From NCBI GenBank assembly GCA_017999915.1, contig JAGNKX010000003.1, forward strand, positions 1 through 64,000: 64,000 bases of DNA, in the 5' to 3' direction. The position numbers were made by a program, and so were the translations under genes. This DNA is from Spirochaetota bacterium (GTDB taxonomy: Bacteria > Spirochaetota > UBA4802 > UBA5550). Position 1 is the stretch's first letter, and each line of letters opens with the position of its first letter. The notes beneath the pieces are model-generated. The model worked only from the letters and a program-made list of their open reading frames with translations, was not told where the DNA came from and ran no database searches. This document shows positions 1 to 63,274 of the stretch, piece after piece.

Positions 1-82
1 TAGTAATGACGCTTAAAATATTTGGGGTAAAAAAGAAGGGGCGCGACTAAAATAAAAAACTTCTGAACATGTCAGGAGTTAC

Positions 83-127
83 CTGTGGGCGCTACTGGAC
101 TTGAACCAGTGACCCTCTGCTTGTAAG
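83..127. repeat. Left partial copy of tRNA-Val 3' half (att site of element A)
   Basis: This 45-bp stretch is identical to the 3' half of the intact tRNA-Val at 63202-63274, from the discriminator end through the T arm to the anticodon loop, and then diverges to unrelated sequence. It cannot be a tRNA because the D arm and 5' acceptor strand are missing. Such partial copies are the usual footprint of tyrosine-integrase elements that insert at a tRNA 3' end. It is read as the outer attachment site of element A. A hairpin of the form aactt-ctga...tcag-gagtt precedes it at about 59-80. What lies to its left (1-58) is too short to interpret. Confidence 0.85.
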
Positions 128-352
128 TTGTCCAATCAGAATTTTAGTAGTGTATGTCGTGATTCGTTGCAATGCGTTGATATGTTTTGCAATGAAAAGA
201 TAAACAAATTTCAGAAACTAAACCAATATCAGGGAAGGTCGTTGCTTTACGTTGCTATGAATGGTATTGAGTATGATCCGGCGGACAAAAAAGAGGTCAA
301 AGAATGGATGATAATATTATCGATGTCAGACGACATAAATTTAAAAAAATAA
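128..352 (+). CDS. Small hypothetical protein at the element A boundary
   Basis: A 74-residue frame opens with a TTG exactly where the tRNA-derived repeat ends and overlaps the start of the next gene by about 50 bp. No domain is recognised. The true start could be the internal ATG around 182, and there is no convincing ribosome binding site. The frame may be the truncated end of a gene cut by the att junction. Support is only the open frame and its position directly upstream of a better gene on the same strand. Confidence 0.3.
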   Translation: MSNQNFSSVCRDSLQCVDMFCNEKINKFQKLNQYQGRSLLYVAMNGIEYDPADKKEVKEWMIILSMSDDINLKK

Positions 353-789
353 AGGGTCAATTTGTTAAAGTACCCCACGTACTATTGAAATGGTGGTCGC
401 CGTGGATGGAGAGGCAGTGTAAGGGGTCAAGCATGGCCTATATCCAAATGTTCACATTTATAAACAGGGATAGAAATAATCCTTTCTTTGGGTATGCTTA
501 TCCAACGCATAAGGAACTGAAGAGAAGAATGGCTATAAAAAGCGACAAGAAGATATGGCAGATAATGAAGTTTTTGGTCAGCATCCATTTTCTTGATAGG
601 AAAAAAAGTGGGAGAAAATACTATTACAGGGTAAATGAAGTACCTGAGCCCACGAAGGAGGTTTTAGAATTACATGACGAGCTTAAAAGACTACGGGTGG
701 CGGAAAGAGAGCAACAGTTCGAAAGAGTGAAAGCTATACGGGAAGCAATGCCAATTGATGAGGACTTTCTTTATGGGAAAACAAAATGA
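304..789 (+). CDS. Putative winged-helix DNA-binding / replication-organiser-like protein
   Basis: 161 residues, basic, rich in aromatic residues. Residues about 20-110 run as helix-rich sequence ending in a basic hairpin (KKSGRKYYYRV), which looks like a winged helix-turn-helix as found at the N-terminus of phage replisome organisers and small-element replication proteins. The C-terminus is a charged helix (ELKRLRVAEREQQFERVKAIRE). It is the first substantial gene of element A, so a replication or regulatory role is plausible. The family assignment is inference from pattern only. An uncharacterised HTH regulator is the main alternative. Confidence 0.6.
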   Translation: MDDNIIDVRRHKFKKIKGQFVKVPHVLLKWWSPWMERQCKGSSMAYIQMFTFINRDRNNPFFGYAYPTHKELKRRMAIKSDKKIWQIMKFLVSIHFLDRKKSGRKYYYRVNEVPEPTKEVLELHDELKRLRVAEREQQFERVKAIREAMPIDEDFLYGKTK

Positions 790-1648: not shown

Positions 1649-1708
1649 GCAAGTTTTAGTAACAGGTAATAATCTGCTATAAGCAGAAGACATAACGATA
1701 GATTCAAA

Positions 1709-1850
1709 GGCGGAGTAGCACCCGCCGAATCAATCGGAGCAATCGGTCGCAGAAATAGACCACGCATATCAGGTGGTCTTGACTTTGATTTCGGGCGACC
1801 GATTGCTCAAGGAAAAGACCGTGCTACCCTGTATGCGTGGTCTTTTTATT
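1709..1850 (+). ncRNA. Candidate structured RNA / attenuator with terminator
   Basis: Several nested complementary segments are visible. ggcgg 1709-1713 pairs with ccgcc 1722-1726. A 14-bp arm at 1737-1750 pairs perfectly with 1795-1808. Inside that, agaccac 1757-1763 pairs with 1773-1779. The same segment, extended to 12 bases (1757-1768), is also perfectly complementary to 1832-1843, which is followed by a T-rich run. One strand can thus pair with either of two partners, the layout expected of an attenuator or a self-contained regulatory RNA. It matches no RNA family I recognise. It lies between the 1442 gene and the membrane-protein gene at 1897. Confidence 0.45.
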
Positions 1851-1896
1851 TCGGAAAGGGAATATTGAAGCAAAGATAATTGAAGGAGCTCGGGTC

Positions 1897-2254: not shown

Positions 2255-3379
2255 ATGAAAAATCAATCCAGCAACGACCAAATTAATAAGTCAGGAATTT
2301 TTATTATAAGAATTATTCAATGGATTCTTGTGATATTTTGTTTATTTTTGGGTATTGGTTTTATTGCCGATGGACTGATAATATCAACGATCGTCACGTT
2401 CGCTTTATTACTATTTATTTTGCCTGCGATCGAAAGATTTTATAAAGCAAAACTGCCGTTCTTGCAACCATTCTATCGAAGATTTATAATTGGGGTTATT
2501 ATTTTTATTGCTGGGTTAGGAATAGAGGCTAAAACAACAGGTTATGAGGCTGTCAAGCTTACGCTTGATAAAGAACCTGCTGAAATTATTTTTATGCCTG
2601 AGTATGTTTTTTCGGGTCAAGTCGGCGGCAATGAAACGCGATTAACTATGAATGGAAAAAAAATAGAAAGTTCCAATGGCAAATTCAGAATAACTGTCCC
2701 CTTAATAAAGGGCGAGAATAAATTTTATTTTATTTTAGAAGGTTATAGCCGCAACAACAGAAAGGGCATTGAGAAGATTGAAAAGTCATATAAAATAAAA
2801 TATCTTACAACAGATGAATATTTTGAGAGCATTTATAATGCGGCTGAAAAGAGTTTTAGAAATAAGGAATATAATGAAGCGTTGAAAATTCTTACGAAAA
2901 TTTCACAAAATTCAAAATACAATGAATCAGGTATTAAATTAAGAAAAATGATAGAGAAAGAAATTGAAAAAAATGAAAGTGTATCAAATGCAAAAATAAT
3001 TCATGATGATAAGGTATGTGATGAAGTTGACTTGTATAAATCAATCAAGACCCTGAAGGATGCGTCAGGCCATGAGATGGGACATTCATGGGTTGAGAGA
3101 CGCCTAAGCATCAATGAATGCAATAATAAAGAGATTATGTTTAGGGTGTTGGAAAAATATTATCGGGAAAAAATCGGTAAAGAGTATGGGAAACAACTAA
3201 TATTTTTCTACACAACAAGATTTGCTAAGGCATGGAATTCAAATCAATTTTGTTGGATCGGGAGTATTCGGAGAATACCTGTTGGCAACGAGAAAATTCA
3301 ATTGATATTCCAAACTGATTACGATGCCCAAACGAAAATGTACAATAACCAGCATGATAAATTTGTCGATGCTGATTAA
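2255..3379 (+). CDS. Membrane protein with large soluble C-terminal domain
   Basis: 374 residues. The N-terminus has about three transmembrane helices (residues 13-30, 32-58 and 74-92), then a beta-rich segment (about 95-175) and a helical, TPR-like stretch containing NKEYNEALKILTKI (about 190-240), then a C-terminal domain. No known family is recognised. The layout (membrane anchor, beta domain, degenerate TPR) resembles sensor or envelope proteins. A GAGG box precedes the ATG. It is the last gene before the recombinase module of element A. Confidence 0.6.
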   Translation: MKNQSSNDQINKSGIFIIRIIQWILVIFCLFLGIGFIADGLIISTIVTFALLLFILPAIERFYKAKLPFLQPFYRRFIIGVIIFIAGLGIEAKTTGYEAVKLTLDKEPAEIIFMPEYVFSGQVGGNETRLTMNGKKIESSNGKFRITVPLIKGENKFYFILEGYSRNNRKGIEKIEKSYKIKYLTTDEYFESIYNAAEKSFRNKEYNEALKILTKISQNSKYNESGIKLRKMIEKEIEKNESVSNAKIIHDDKVCDEVDLYKSIKTLKDASGHEMGHSWVERRLSINECNNKEIMFRVLEKYYREKIGKEYGKQLIFFYTTRFAKAWNSNQFCWIGSIRRIPVGNEKIQLIFQTDYDAQTKMYNNQHDKFVDAD

Positions 3380-3421
3380 AAAATTTACAAAAATATTTGC
3401 CGGTTTTAAGGAGTTTTAGTA

Positions 3422-3455
3422 TATTTACTACATAACATTTCTTATGTAGTAAATA
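3422..3455. promoter_or_regulatory. Perfect 14-bp palindrome with 6-bp centre (dif-like site)
   Basis: Two perfect 14-bp inverted arms, 3422-3435 and 3442-3455, flank the 6-bp centre catttc. The right arm contains TTATGTAGTAA. Xer sites (dif) have 11-bp arms around a 6-bp spacer, with the XerD arm beginning TTATGT, so geometry and arm sequence both fit. The site ends 3 bp before the start codon of a Xer-like recombinase, so it could be that enzyme's recombination site or an autoregulatory operator. Confidence 0.6.
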
Positions 3456-3458
3456 ATA

Positions 3459-4319
3459 ATGGGCAAAAAAGACGACAAAATTCCGGTAATTAGAGCGGCT
3501 GACATTCGGGTACAAAAGAAATCCCCGTTTAGAAATAAGGCCCTGAGCAAAAATTCTATTATCACTTACAGCGCTGCTGTAAAGGGGTTTGATAAGTTTG
3601 TAAAAGATATTCACGCCGATTATAACGTCGTCACAATCGATCAGTGGTTGAAGAAGTATCGGAACCCCAACACTTATAACCTGAAATTACAGGCCCTCAA
3701 AGAGTATATATTAAAGCAATATGAAGATGAACCACCGGAAGTTAAAATGAAGCTGGTGGAGGCCCTTGAATCAATAAAAAGACGGAAGCCACAAAAGGCA
3801 GTTATGGAAGATGACTATCTTTCCATTGAGAAGGTCGAGGAACTGGCGAGCCTTGCAAAGCCGCTAACTGCCTGTTTCATCCTGGCGTTGTTTTGGACCG
3901 GGTGCAGGGTATCTGAGCTAACCAATATCAAAATAATCGATTGTAGGGCAAATGGGAAGGTCTCAATAAGGATCAGACAGGGGAAGGGGAACAAAGAGCG
4001 CGAAGTTTATATGCCAAGAACCGTTTATGATCGCATCAGGGAAGAGTTTCAAGGAAAGGAATACCTCTTTGAAACCAGGGCAGGAACTCCTTATCACAGG
4101 CGAAATGTATCAAAAACAATCGCAAAAGAAGCGCGGGAAAAGATGGAGCTTGATATTTCTGCTCATACCCTGAGACATTCAAAGGCCATGTATTTAAAAA
4201 ATGTGAGGGGTCTGTCAGCCGATCAGATCGCAAAAGCATTGGGGCATAGTAGCCCATTGACGACATTGCAGCATTATTTTCATGGCACACCGACGGCGGA
4301 GGAACAGGGTATTGAGTAG
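3459..4319 (+). CDS. Xer-like tyrosine recombinase
   Basis: 286 residues, the size of XerC/XerD-type enzymes. An N-terminal SAM-like core-binding domain (about 30-115) precedes the catalytic domain. All catalytic residues are visible: R150 in GCRVSEL, K176 in GKGNKE, H236 and R239 in HTLRH, H263 in LGHSS and Y273 in HYF. The start ATG abuts the palindrome at 3422-3455 and has no good Shine-Dalgarno sequence, whereas a strong AAGGAG lies about 45 bp upstream before the palindrome. It is not an integron integrase because the extra IntI segment is absent. It could resolve dimers, invert DNA or act as a second integrase of element A. Confidence 0.9.
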   Translation: MGKKDDKIPVIRAADIRVQKKSPFRNKALSKNSIITYSAAVKGFDKFVKDIHADYNVVTIDQWLKKYRNPNTYNLKLQALKEYILKQYEDEPPEVKMKLVEALESIKRRKPQKAVMEDDYLSIEKVEELASLAKPLTACFILALFWTGCRVSELTNIKIIDCRANGKVSIRIRQGKGNKEREVYMPRTVYDRIREEFQGKEYLFETRAGTPYHRRNVSKTIAKEAREKMELDISAHTLRHSKAMYLKNVRGLSADQIAKALGHSSPLTTLQHYFHGTPTAEEQGIE

Positions 4320-4579
4320 TAAAATTTCGTATATATGGGGAAGAAAGGTAACAGGTATGACATCCCTGAGCGGGTATGAAAATGGCATAAGGAGAATTAA
4401 GAAAGGTATAAGCTTTTCAATGAAAAATGAGTGAAAAAGCACAGTCTTTTAGGAGGCAAGAAAAATCAATTCTGAGCACTCTTGAATAGCCTTTGAATTT
4501 TAGGAAAGCCGAGACAGACCAAGCAGTATCGACGAAGTAGAACTCTCACTTTCCAATTTATCTTATTGTGAGGTAAGTT

Positions 4580-4912
4580 GTGAAAACTATTTCGTCGTGC
4601 AGTGACCTACCAGTTAATTCTCAAAAGAACAATTACTTACTTGTAGAGTCGGAACAGAAACCGGAAAAGATTTTTGTCACCTCAAGACAATTATCTGAAA
4701 TGATCGGTATGCCGGTTTATACGATTCGCCAGAAAGCGCGGGAAGGTGTTTTCCCGGTGTATGGGGTGACAGAGAAAGGTTATTTATTTAAGGTTGCCGA
4801 GATTGTAAAAATCATCGAGGGTACTAAAATTAAGTTGAAATCAGGGGGCAACGTTGTGAAGATGCAAGAGCAACGTTGCAATGACCTTCCCGGTGGCAAG
4901 GGAGGTCAATAA
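4580..4912 (+). CDS. Excisionase-like HTH protein of element A
   Basis: 110 residues. Residues about 33-80 (VTSRQLSEMIGMPVYTIRQKAREG followed by a short wing) have the AlpA/MerR-type helix-turn-helix of excisionase-family proteins. The stop codon overlaps the integrase start by one base (TAATG), so the two are coupled. The family role is to direct excision and regulate the integrase. The C-terminal 30 residues are basic and not recognised. A similar, shorter protein accompanies the integrase of element B (7366-7545). Confidence 0.75.
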   Translation: MKTISSCSDLPVNSQKNNYLLVESEQKPEKIFVTSRQLSEMIGMPVYTIRQKAREGVFPVYGVTEKGYLFKVAEIVKIIEGTKIKLKSGGNVVKMQEQRCNDLPGGKGGQ

Positions 4913-6000
4913 TGCCTTTTCTAGAACATAAGAATCAAAATCGGACTCATGGTAGAACGCGGTATCGTTTTTATTTGCAGCATAATAATAAAAAGTACCG
5001 TAATACGGTTGTAGTTTATCGGACAACCGTTGAAAGGGTTTACCATGAGTGGGTAAGGTCAATCATGGACGGCACGATTGTCAATCGTGACCGGAAGCTC
5101 TTTGAAATAATCGATTTATATTTGGCTTATATTGCAGAACGGAAGCCAGAGAAATATTTTAAATTGCATCGGAAAGAATTAACGCTTTTTGGACAATTCT
5201 TTCGGGACATTCATGAGGATGTAAAGGTCATTGAAATTAAACGTGCCCATATTAAAGATTTCAAAGAATGGCGCAGAAAGCATTCGCTTGTTCTTCACAA
5301 GAGGGAAATATCAGTCCGTGCGGTAAACGAATCAGTCAGCGTCCTGTCTGTCTTTTTCAACTGGTGCATTGATCGAGAGTATTACACCCGGTCGAATCCC
5401 GCCTCGCGGTGCAAAGATTCGGAAGATAATTTTAGGCTTGTCATTCTGAACCCGGCTCAGATTGCTGAGCTGCTCAGCAAGGCAAAGGACTGTAAAGATG
5501 GTTGGCTGTATACAGGGGTCGTGCTCGCTCTTTTTGCCGGGTTAAGAAAGAAAGAAGTTTTAGAGCTGCAATGGGGGGATATAGACCCGTATCAAGGTGT
5601 CATTAATCTCCGTGCAGTGGCGACAAAGAGCAAGAAGCAAAGGACGATTCCGCTCCCTGGGTTTCTTGAAAATCATCTATCAGGGATCGAGAGGGAAGGT
5701 GAGTGGGTTCTCATGGATCACGGCACAAGGGTCAGGGCGGATCGATTCTGGTACAAGTGGGAACGGTTTCGGGATTCCCTGTCATTCGCAACCCTTCCCA
5801 ATGGGTTGACATTGACGTTTCATGACCTCAGGCACGTGTATGCCCAATCGCTCAGGGACGCAGGGGTCAACCTAGGAGACATCCAAGCCTATATGGGGCA
5901 TTCGTCAGTCGAATTGACTATCAGGAGGTACGCACAGCGCGGTGGAGAAGATGGGAGGGCAAAGGTAGACAGATTGACCGAAGTCTATCATGTACACTAG
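4912..6000 (+). CDS. Tyrosine integrase of element A
   Basis: 362 residues. The order is an N-terminal arm-binding region (1-60), a core-binding domain (about 60-170) and a catalytic domain with R212 (AGLRKKEV), a Lys near 239-241, H304 and R307 (HDLRH), H330 (MGHSS) and Y340 (RRYAQ). This is a complete active-site set of phage-type integrases. It ends about 95 bp before the middle tRNA-Val copy, the usual position next to the attachment site. It resembles the element B integrase in length and motif context but differs in sequence. Confidence 0.92.
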   Translation: MPFLEHKNQNRTHGRTRYRFYLQHNNKKYRNTVVVYRTTVERVYHEWVRSIMDGTIVNRDRKLFEIIDLYLAYIAERKPEKYFKLHRKELTLFGQFFRDIHEDVKVIEIKRAHIKDFKEWRRKHSLVLHKREISVRAVNESVSVLSVFFNWCIDREYYTRSNPASRCKDSEDNFRLVILNPAQIAELLSKAKDCKDGWLYTGVVLALFAGLRKKEVLELQWGDIDPYQGVINLRAVATKSKKQRTIPLPGFLENHLSGIEREGEWVLMDHGTRVRADRFWYKWERFRDSLSFATLPNGLTLTFHDLRHVYAQSLRDAGVNLGDIQAYMGHSSVELTIRRYAQRGGEDGRAKVDRLTEVYHVH

Positions 6001-6095
6001 GGGCTGAGCGGACAAAAAAGTGGACAACCAAAGGTATGAGAGGCTTTTTAGTGATGGGTCTGAAACTGTAACCCCTGAATTTATCAAGGGTTATC
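6001..6095. other. Element A right end with repeated ggacaa boxes and hairpin
   Basis: Between the integrase stop and the middle att core are two ggacaa boxes (about 6009 and 6022). A further copy sits in inverted orientation right at the left att site (ttgtcc, 127-132). These are candidate integrase arm sites. A stem-loop of the form gtaacccctga...tcaagggtta occupies 6068-6094. On the minus strand it would follow the tRNA-derived sequence like a terminator. Confidence 0.4.
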
Positions 6096-6144
6096 TGTGG
6101 GCGCTACTGGACTTGAACCAGTGACCCTCTGCTTGTAAGGCAGA
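6096..6144. repeat. Middle partial tRNA-Val copy (junction of elements A and B)
   Basis: About 49 bp identical to the 3' half of the tRNA-Val at 63202-63274, extending slightly further into the anticodon stem (through gcaga) than the left copy. It lacks the D arm and acceptor 5' strand. It forms the boundary between two elements, each with an integrase whose stop codon lies within about 100 bp of it. It is therefore read as attL of element B and the inner att site of element A. Confidence 0.88.
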
Positions 6145-6235: not shown

Positions 6236-7297
6236 TCAATTTACCTTGGGCTCAATGATATTGACGATACGGTTTACCTTGGAAACCCCGTCGAATCCAC
6301 CTGCCTGTGCATATCGCATGTGTGTCACTACTGGCGAACTGTGTCCGAGAAAGTGCTGTACGTCATCCAGACTGACTCCCGAGTCACGCATAAGCCCTGC
6401 ATAAATGTGTCGTAAGTCATGCACGGTTAAGCGATCAACTGTTAAATTGTCCTTGAAAGACAAGGTTTCTCGAAACTCTTTGAAATGTCTCTTTAGCGTA
6501 GAGTCTGAGATAGTAATCACTTTTTCGGATGTATGTTCGAGTTTGATAAGATAATCGAACAGCAGATCAGGCATAGGGATAGATCGCATTTTTTTCGATT
6601 TTGAATTTTCGGCACGAATTTCAATGTGCCTGGTCTCAAAATCAATATCATCCCATTTTAATCGCATCATTTCTCTTTTCCGTAAGCCTGTAAAAACACC
6701 AAGCATTACGACAGTATGAAGACCCCCGAATTGTACAGACTTTTTAAGGAGTTCGACAATCTGCGCTCCATTAAGTCTGACATGGCGAAAATTTTGTTCA
6801 TTTTTTCTCAATTGAGTGCAGGGGCTTACTTTATTGTAATACTCATGCCGTATGCACCACGAAAAAAACGAACTCAAAATGTTCAGGTCTTTATTCAGTG
6901 TAGATCGAGAGACTTTTCCATTTCGCCCTTCTTGCTCAGCCCGCCATGCGAGATAGCGTTCGATATGGCATCGCTTGATTTCGATCAGATATTCGTTTTG
7001 AAAGAACTTTTTAAGCCTGTTGGCAAAAAAGACAACTTCGGTCTTGTACTGTTTGTTAGACTTATGTACCCGGACAAATTCTTGCAGGTAACGTTCGAAC
7101 AATTCGAATAGTAAATTGTCTCCGCCACTACTTCCCGCCTGGCACATTTCGACCCATTCAGCGAATTTGCGGGGTGCTTCAATGCTTCGACAAACAACTC
7201 GTTCCCGAAAACGTTGACCATTGTAACTTGCATCGAAGTAGTATTTTGTTTTACCAGCAGGTACTCCTTTTTGGTTATGATCTTTATAGTAAGGCAT
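6236..7297 (-). CDS. Tyrosine integrase of element B
   Basis: 353 residues. An N-terminal arm-binding region is followed by a core-binding domain and the catalytic domain with R206 (TGLRKREM), a Lys near 234, H293 and R296 (HDLRH), H319 (LGHSS) and Y329 (MRYAQ). The stop codon lies about 90 bp from the middle att copy, so it is oriented toward its own att site. A 21-bp palindrome (6226-6246, arms of 10 bp) overlaps the stop codon. The integrase of element A (4912-6000) has the same architecture, which fits both elements using the same tRNA-Val target. Confidence 0.92.
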   Translation of the reverse strand: MPYYKDHNQKGVPAGKTKYYFDASYNGQRFRERVVCRSIEAPRKFAEWVEMCQAGSSGGDNLLFELFERYLQEFVRVHKSNKQYKTEVVFFANRLKKFFQNEYLIEIKRCHIERYLAWRAEQEGRNGKVSRSTLNKDLNILSSFFSWCIRHEYYNKVSPCTQLRKNEQNFRHVRLNGAQIVELLKKSVQFGGLHTVVMLGVFTGLRKREMMRLKWDDIDFETRHIEIRAENSKSKKMRSIPMPDLLFDYLIKLEHTSEKVITISDSTLKRHFKEFRETLSFKDNLTVDRLTVHDLRHIYAGLMRDSGVSLDDVQHFLGHSSPVVTHMRYAQAGGFDGVSKVNRIVNIIEPKVN

Positions 7298-9456: not shown

Positions 9457-10155
9457 ATGATGGAAAAAAAATATTATGCGGTAGCAAAAGGGCGGAAACC
9501 AGGAATCTATAAAAAATGGTATGATGCCAAGTTGCAAGTTGATGGATATTCCGGTGCAATTTATAAGGGCTTTCCCAAATATGACTTAGCAAGGGAATGG
9601 ATTAATAGATATAGAGGCAGCAATAAAAAAGTTATACAACCAGGTGTAATGTCAGTTGAGAACATTGAAGAAGTTACGACTTCCGTTGATGGTAAAATTA
9701 TCATATATGCTGATGGCTCATGTAAGAATAATCCAGGACCTGGAGGTTATGGAATTATCCAGATTGCAAATGGAGAAGAGAAAGAGATTACAGGTGGTTA
9801 TCGATATACTACTAACAATAGAATGGAATTGATGGCAGTTATTGTTGCTCTTGAAAATATTGATAATAAAGATTTTCCAGTAATAATATATACTGATTCC
9901 CAATATGTAGTAAATAGTATAAACAAAGGGTGGGCTAAAAAATGGAAAGCAAATAATTGGATAAAAAAAGATGGAAATCCTGCTTTAAATCGTGATCTTT
10001 GGGAAAAACTACTATTGATACTAAATAATCTCGATGTTTCATTTTATTGGATAATGGGGCATGCAGGTAATCCGATAAATGAAAAATGTGATAAATTAGC
10101 CATGATGGCTGCAAGAAAGAGTGAACTACTTGAAGATGTAGGTTATGTAGGATGA
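9457..10155 (+). CDS. rnhA: Viroplasmin-domain ribonuclease HI
   Basis: 232 residues. The N-terminal 55 residues (KKYYAVAKGRKPGIYKKW...) are a caulimovirus viroplasmin/RNase H1 hybrid-binding domain. The C-terminal part (about 78-225) is RNase HI with D86 (YADGS), E124 (NRMELMAV), D147 (YTDSQYV) and D212 plus H202 (GHAGN). It cleaves RNA in RNA-DNA hybrids. An AGGAGG box precedes the ATG. Its place directly after a putative replication initiator suggests primer removal or hybrid resolution during element replication. The AT-rich composition matches its neighbours. Confidence 0.92.
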   Translation: MMEKKYYAVAKGRKPGIYKKWYDAKLQVDGYSGAIYKGFPKYDLAREWINRYRGSNKKVIQPGVMSVENIEEVTTSVDGKIIIYADGSCKNNPGPGGYGIIQIANGEEKEITGGYRYTTNNRMELMAVIVALENIDNKDFPVIIYTDSQYVVNSINKGWAKKWKANNWIKKDGNPALNRDLWEKLLLILNNLDVSFYWIMGHAGNPINEKCDKLAMMAARKSELLEDVGYVG

Positions 10156-59116: not shown

Positions 59117-59177
59117 AATTCCTGCAGAGATTGGCAGTAGATGATGAGCAGTTTATGAAGCTTAATGGCTTAGCTAA

Positions 59178-59219
59178 TCAACTTTACCCCCACCAGAGAT
59201 GGGGGTAAAGTTGATTTTA
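59178..59219 (+). terminator. Terminator of the RM/DUF262 operon
   Basis: Perfect 15-bp arms (tcaactttaccccca at 59178-59192 and its complement at 59200-59214) around a 7-base loop, followed by TTTTAT, 61 bp after the last operon stop codon. A textbook intrinsic terminator. Confidence 0.92.
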
Positions 59220-63190: not shown

Positions 63191-63201
63191 AGAGAGAAAT
63201 G

Positions 63202-63274
63202 TGGGCGCTACTGGACTTGAACCAGTGACCCTCTGCTTGTAAGGCAGATGCTCTTCCAGCTGAGCTAAGCGCCC
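63202..63274 (-). tRNA. tRNA-Val (TAC anticodon), integration target
   Basis: 73 nt that fold into a standard cloverleaf on the minus strand: 7-bp acceptor stem GGGCGCT/AGCGCCC, D arm GCTC-AGCTGGAA-GAGC, anticodon stem TCTGC/GCAGA with loop CTTACAA (anticodon TAC, valine GTA codons), T arm ACTGG-TTCAAGT-CCAGT and discriminator A. CCA is not encoded. It follows the HU-type gene by 5 bp and is probably co-transcribed with it. Its 3' half is duplicated at 6096-6144 and 83-127, so it is the attachment gene for both elements and was restored at each insertion. Confidence 0.97.

Follow-up and report, generated by a model that had tools for sequence, protein, structure and literature searches.

A predicted palindromic Xer-type core site beside a Xer-like recombinase in a tRNA-Val-integrated element of a spirochaete

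Two tandem elements at a tRNA-Val gene

The window analysed here, a stretch of 64,000 nucleotides from a Spirochaetota bacterium, carries two elements in tandem at the same tRNA-Val gene. The first, element A, is 6 kb long and is flanked by two repeats that reproduce 43-48 bp of the tRNA-Val 3' part, in line with its initial annotation as a tRNA-targeted element. The left att copy (positions 80-127, minus strand) has 43 bp identical to the tRNA-Val 3' part plus flanking repeat, and the right att copy (6092-6139, minus strand) has 48 identical bp. The left flank of element A is short (~80 bases) because the window begins at a contig end. The intact target gene, tRNA-Val(tac), lies at 63201-63274 on the minus strand, at the far end of the second element. 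Element A encodes an integrase of 362 aa (4912-6000, plus strand), to which we assign integration at tRNA-Val, and a small HTH_17/excisionase-like DNA-binding protein (4580-4912, plus strand). A possible replication protein is encoded at 304-789 (plus strand), and replication of element A is proposed on the basis of its one weak match, to a DnaD-like helicase loader (PHROG 186, E=9e-4). DNA relatives of element A were not found in phages. An intergenic stretch of the element at 1690-1860 (plus strand) contains overlapping perfect inverted repeats, has a computed RNA fold of -74.9 kcal/mol (z -8.2) and terminates in a hairpin followed by TTTTTATTT. It matched no Rfam family and had no relative in 58 related genomes, and it is possibly a non-coding RNA.

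The neighbouring element B (6140-63200) spans 57 kb at the same tRNA-Val and contains many restriction- or defence-like genes. Its integrase (6236-7297, minus strand) is 37% identical to that of element A. Element B also contains an intergenic inverted repeat at 59176-59216, with perfect 17-bp arms and a spacer of 7 bp.

A Xer-like recombinase and its upstream palindrome

Apart from its integrase, element A encodes an intact Xer-like tyrosine recombinase of 286 aa (3459-4319, plus strand; PF00589, E=2.3e-23), which supports the initial proposal that the element holds two recombination systems. The two enzymes share only 24% identity. Together with the fold match, the catalytic set R150, K176, H236, R239, H263 and Y273, invariant across 14 aligned family members, identifies the enzyme as a tyrosine recombinase. 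Its best-scoring Xer model was that of XerA (archaeal type), with 102 bits against a cut-off of 220, followed by XerC (74.0 against 335), XerD (68.6 against 330) and the NCBIfam model of XerS (27.8 against 267). All four scores lie far under the curated cut-offs. XerH was absent among the Xer-model matches, and a PDB search returned it as a weak match (E=0.00047) covering part of the chain only. A comparison of the system to XerH and XerS, made in the initial annotation, finds no support as a statement of kinship, but its other part, the action of a single recombinase, gains from the recurrent sites described below. The host genome encodes a canonical XerD elsewhere (356 bits against a cut-off of 329.6).

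In a maximum-likelihood tree, the window enzyme grouped with recombinases from genomes G005, G020 and G035 (support 100/99), and together with other spirochaete relatives it was placed apart from the XerD of the host, the two integrases and enzymes of integron type (99/96). Related recombinases, 27-51% identical to the window enzyme, occur in other Spirochaetota and on pBHWA1, a circular plasmid of Brachyspira hyodysenteriae, and the enzyme of a further spirochaete genome (G114) is 99% identical to that of pBHWA1. A direct search for viral homologues of three of the recombinases found none. One genome of the host genus (G003) contains three related recombinases that are truncated or lie at contig edges (C13, C45 and C82; L105, L099 and L010), which suggests turnover of such elements.

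Directly upstream of the recombinase gene lies a palindrome, TATTTACTACATAA-CATTTC-TTATGTAGTAAATA (3422-3455, no strand assigned), which ends ~3-4 bp ahead of the ATG at 3459 and which we predict to be a Xer-type core site. The left arm (3422-3435) and the right arm (3442-3455) are complementary at 14 of 14 positions, so the perfect palindrome beside a Xer-like recombinase was correctly recognised at the outset. Between them lies a 6-nt spacer (3436-3441), and this centre is asymmetric, CATTTC having the reverse complement GAAATG. Xer/dif core sites are defined by arms of at least 11 bp, a centre of 6-8 bp and a dif-like inner half-site, and the window palindrome has a 14-6-14 layout with inner half-sites reading TTATGT, as in dif. 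The site can alternatively be read as 13-bp arms around an 8-bp spacer (loxP-type); a spacer of 6 scores best, as it does for most relatives having a site. By chance, perfect pairs of 14-bp arms are expected ~0.0006 times per 64 kb for one spacing and ~0.006 times for spacings of 3-12, and the score of the palindrome was never reached when the upstream region was shuffled 200 times with dinucleotides preserved. When 134 ORFs of the window and related loci were scored, the window recombinase had the best upstream spacer-6 palindrome and the G005 recombinase, which is 51% identical to it, the second best; two control recombinases from outside the family, L032 and L035, also scored above 7.5.

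Allowing up to 3 arm mismatches, we detected no second copy of the site in the host assembly (5.46 Mb), so that the window site is the single copy. A standing inversion switch, the other function suggested at first, is therefore unlikely in the present genome.

Sites and surroundings of related recombinases

Palindromes with a 6-bp centre, located by symmetry alone, were found upstream of homologous recombinases of other genera, namely in several Brachyspira genomes and pBHWA1, G161, G156, G005 and the cyanobacterial plasmid pGM03. The site reads ATATACATAA-CTTAAC-TTATGTATAT in Brachyspira, ATTTTACATAA-TGACTC-TTTTGTAAAAT in G161 and TTGTTAGATAA-TGTTAG-TTATGTAACAG in G156, while that of G005 has 19-bp arms with 16/19 matching. 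The arms differ by lineage, and the asymmetric 6-bp centre and an inner half-site near TTWTGT are constant, which upholds the Xer-type geometry assigned to the window site. Over 10 sites (20 half-sites), one of them found by motif search and four of them mutually related Brachyspira sites, positions 1, 2 and 6 of TTWTGT are invariant and positions 4 and 5 are kept in 19 of 20 half-sites. The arms co-vary, as TATATA in G142 becomes TGTATA in G187 on both sides. In the 552 kb of DNA collected we counted 301 distinct spacer-6 palindromes. Those that agree with TTWTGT at 11 or 12 of the 12 positions of their two halves are, without exception, located directly upstream of a tyrosine recombinase; loci retrieved by the motif are left aside here, and many of the remaining loci had been chosen for holding a recombinase.

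The sample covers few independent lineages. The G148 recombinase has a clean upstream palindrome whose spacer is odd (5 or 7), and no spacer-6 palindrome was found within 160 bp upstream in G255, G036, Entomospira or the close relatives G020 and G035; hence the pairing either is absent from some relatives or involves a site located elsewhere. A scan of 2.9 million viral contigs, using a pattern with the inner arms of the window site, gave 3 matches, one of which is followed 440 bp downstream by a tyrosine recombinase. The remaining two were rejected as chance matches inside long ORFs of ~4.4-kb genomes resembling RNA phages. Counts of pattern matches in Brachyspira at two mismatches did not exceed the control and were disregarded. 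Separately, we observed AGTTTATACGC-CATATG-GCGTATAAACT at positions 1012-1039 of G021:C25 (L014/L042), which may be a spirochaete attachment site of integron type; an integron-integrase-like gene and a toxin-antitoxin-like gene pair lie beside it.

The resemblance of the half-site to dif and the presence of a canonical XerD in the host are both compatible with a site used by host XerC/XerD, as in IMEX, with the neighbouring recombinase unrelated to it. Fully symmetric arms, however, cannot tell XerC from XerD, the arms differ from lineage to lineage along with the adjacent recombinase, and no matching host dif was found, which together make the use of host enzymes highly improbable. In the search for a chromosomal dif, the proteobacterial pattern yielded 3-mismatch matches only, and the best-looking candidate is not conserved in the family, so we assign no dif. 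IMEX-type integration, at the host dif by host XerCD, does not describe element A itself, which encodes an integrase and is bounded by att copies of tRNA-Val.

The position of the palindrome with respect to promoter and start codon varies among these loci and therefore argues against a pure operator or mRNA hairpin. In the window, a promoter-like sequence, TTGCCG-17-TATATT (3397-3425, plus strand), has its -10 inside the left arm, although such sequences are weak evidence here (5 in the region against 3.0 expected). Given this overlap and the small DNA-binding proteins encoded nearby, the palindrome could be an autoregulatory operator, at which the recombinase or another regulator represses the recombinase promoter and no recombination takes place. 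In Brachyspira, however, the palindrome lies upstream of an apparent promoter (TTGAAA-16-TATAAT), in G161 it is ~80-106 nt ahead of the start codon, and the constant asymmetric 6-bp centre with a dif-like half-site fits a strand-exchange core, so we consider an operator alone improbable. We consider it very unlikely that the palindrome acts as an mRNA hairpin controlling how the recombinase is translated. Looping out the 34 nt would move AAGGAG (3408-3413, plus strand), a motif with an inferred Shine-Dalgarno-like function that lies beyond the palindrome, from 45 to 11 nt of the ATG, which has no other good Shine-Dalgarno motif, and the fold is stable (-16.6 kcal/mol, z -4.15). On the other hand, this arrangement is not conserved, since G005 has an AGGAA motif between palindrome and ATG and the Brachyspira palindrome comes ahead of the promoter, and the TTWTGT half-sites would be left without a reason. 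A terminator scan of 3250-4650 found none. Since the left arm overlaps the weak promoter-like sequence, the recombinase, once bound, could also act as a repressor of its own expression; autoregulation and a translational effect could thus be compatible with recombination at the site and secondary to it.

Several of the related recombinases have plasmid surroundings. On pBHWA1, the recombinase adjoins primase and helicase genes, ParA-type genes lie beside the recombinases of G148 and G026, and Entomospira p28 carries a related recombinase on a replicon with a ParA gene. The recombinases of G020, G035 and G036 lie within elements that also encode a replication initiator and, as a separate gene, an integrase. 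For the nearest relatives in other families, these elements are integrative and the replication gene encodes a DnaD-like or replication-initiation protein. A small element in G035 (L038, G035:C56) encodes an integrase, a replication initiator, a Xer-like recombinase, a terminase small subunit and a major head protein, and resembles a spirochaete phage satellite of the capsid-carrying kind.

Sites at other positions were seen on two contigs. The G026 contig (L041, G026:C180), plasmid-like and with a ParA-type gene, holds three copies of the palindrome AAGTGTTACTTTTAACACTT, at 9535-9568, 12883 and 14950, one of them 10 bp after the related recombinase. On a Brachyspira contig (G134:C90:4434-4457), the site upstream of the recombinase is damaged and a second good site lies ~2 kb away. 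Multiple palindromes of this kind, as in G026, and a site distant from its recombinase, as in G134, would suit a second mobility or cointegration system, which would use the same chemistry to join element A to a replicon with a compatible site or to invert or excise a segment. We regard such a system as unlikely in the window, where the site is present once in the whole host assembly and element A is already equipped with an integrase and two tRNA att copies.

Proposed role and relation to known systems

We favour the interpretation that the palindrome is the core site of the adjacent Xer-like recombinase, which would act as a homotetramer to resolve dimers of element A, and we give it a probability of roughly three in four on the sequence evidence. 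Binding, cleavage, strand exchange and the dimer-resolution role are what we infer from the computed features, namely the site, the intact recombinase, the single copy, the recurrence of geometry and half-site beside relatives and the plasmid location of several of these. Two recombinase monomers would bind the two identical 14-bp half-sites with their inner motif TTATGT, two such sites would synapse within the homotetramer, and strands would be exchanged across the asymmetric centre CATTTC, the direction of which would cause directly repeated copies to resolve. A dimer of element A, circular or replicating, would contain two directly repeated sites, from which the recombinase may yield monomers, leaving integration at tRNA-Val to the separate integrase. 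One recombinase alone would probably recombine the window site. Plasmid-type multimer resolution is the most likely role, because relatives have plasmid contexts. Recombination products were not seen.

The pairing in the window joins already known single-recombinase systems with an adjacent site, and the same pairing is found on spirochaete plasmids. In XerS/difSL of streptococci and XerH/difH of Campylobacter and Helicobacter, a single Xer-like recombinase acts as a homotetramer on an adjacent site, and it has been proposed that a site next to the recombinase gene may be a hallmark of Xer systems with one recombinase (PMC5357621). The window has the same arrangement of one Xer-like recombinase with a site next to its gene, and it recurs in relatives. 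The XerS and XerH systems are chromosomal, with enzymes of ~355 aa, whereas the window recombinase has 286 aa, belongs to a mobile element and has a site with perfect arms; the site is also not of difSL type, its centre being 6 bp compared with 11 bp in difSL (PMC5357621). XerL/dif of Legionellales has uninterrupted inverted-repeat arms, and a Coxiella plasmid copy is adjacent to its site (PMC9765430). It resembles the window system in its single recombinase, its uninterrupted arms and this plasmid-borne copy but, compared by description, XerL recombines the chromosomal dif in Legionella and its active tyrosine, Y387, implies a larger protein (PMC9765430).

A search for symmetric sites close to recombinase genes, comparable to the one made here, is also how Cre-like systems such as Nigri/nox are found (PMC4957104). 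Cre/loxP and Nigri/nox share with the window an adjacent site, symmetric arms, an asymmetric spacer and a single plasmid or phage-plasmid recombinase, although in loxP-type sites a spacer of 8 bp separates 13-bp arms, whereas in the window the arms are 14 bp, the centre is 6 bp and the enzyme is Xer-like. Plasmid pXO1 carries IntXO-PSL, which is part of a plasmid maintenance system (PMC5567495, citing J Bacteriol 2016). As described there, it is likewise a plasmid-encoded tyrosine recombinase with its own short site, but belongs to a Firmicute plasmid and uses a 37-bp site. A related enzyme, the pBHWA1 tyrosine recombinase, annotated as an integrase (PMC2650404), is 27% identical to the window enzyme and has an upstream dif-like palindrome with a 6-bp centre. 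It resides on a free circular plasmid beside replication genes, whereas the window enzyme resides in an integrated element.

More tentatively, and with slightly less than even confidence, we propose that these enzymes form an unrecognised single-recombinase Xer clade common to spirochaete plasmids and satellite-like integrative elements, each with an orthogonal palindromic core, in which the integrase-bearing elements keep plasmid-style resolution for a replicating stage. In the literature searched, a partial collection, neither this spirochaete clade nor its sites were described. The present analysis offers predicted target sites for an uncharacterised clade of Xer-like enzymes, so that both become testable together, and the varied arms around a common TTWTGT core should be useful for learning half-site specificity and possibly as orthogonal recombination tools. 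The pBHWA1 integrase gains a likely role, and the window pairing suggests that a plasmid-like stage, with resolution of multimers, is retained by small elements integrated at tRNA genes.
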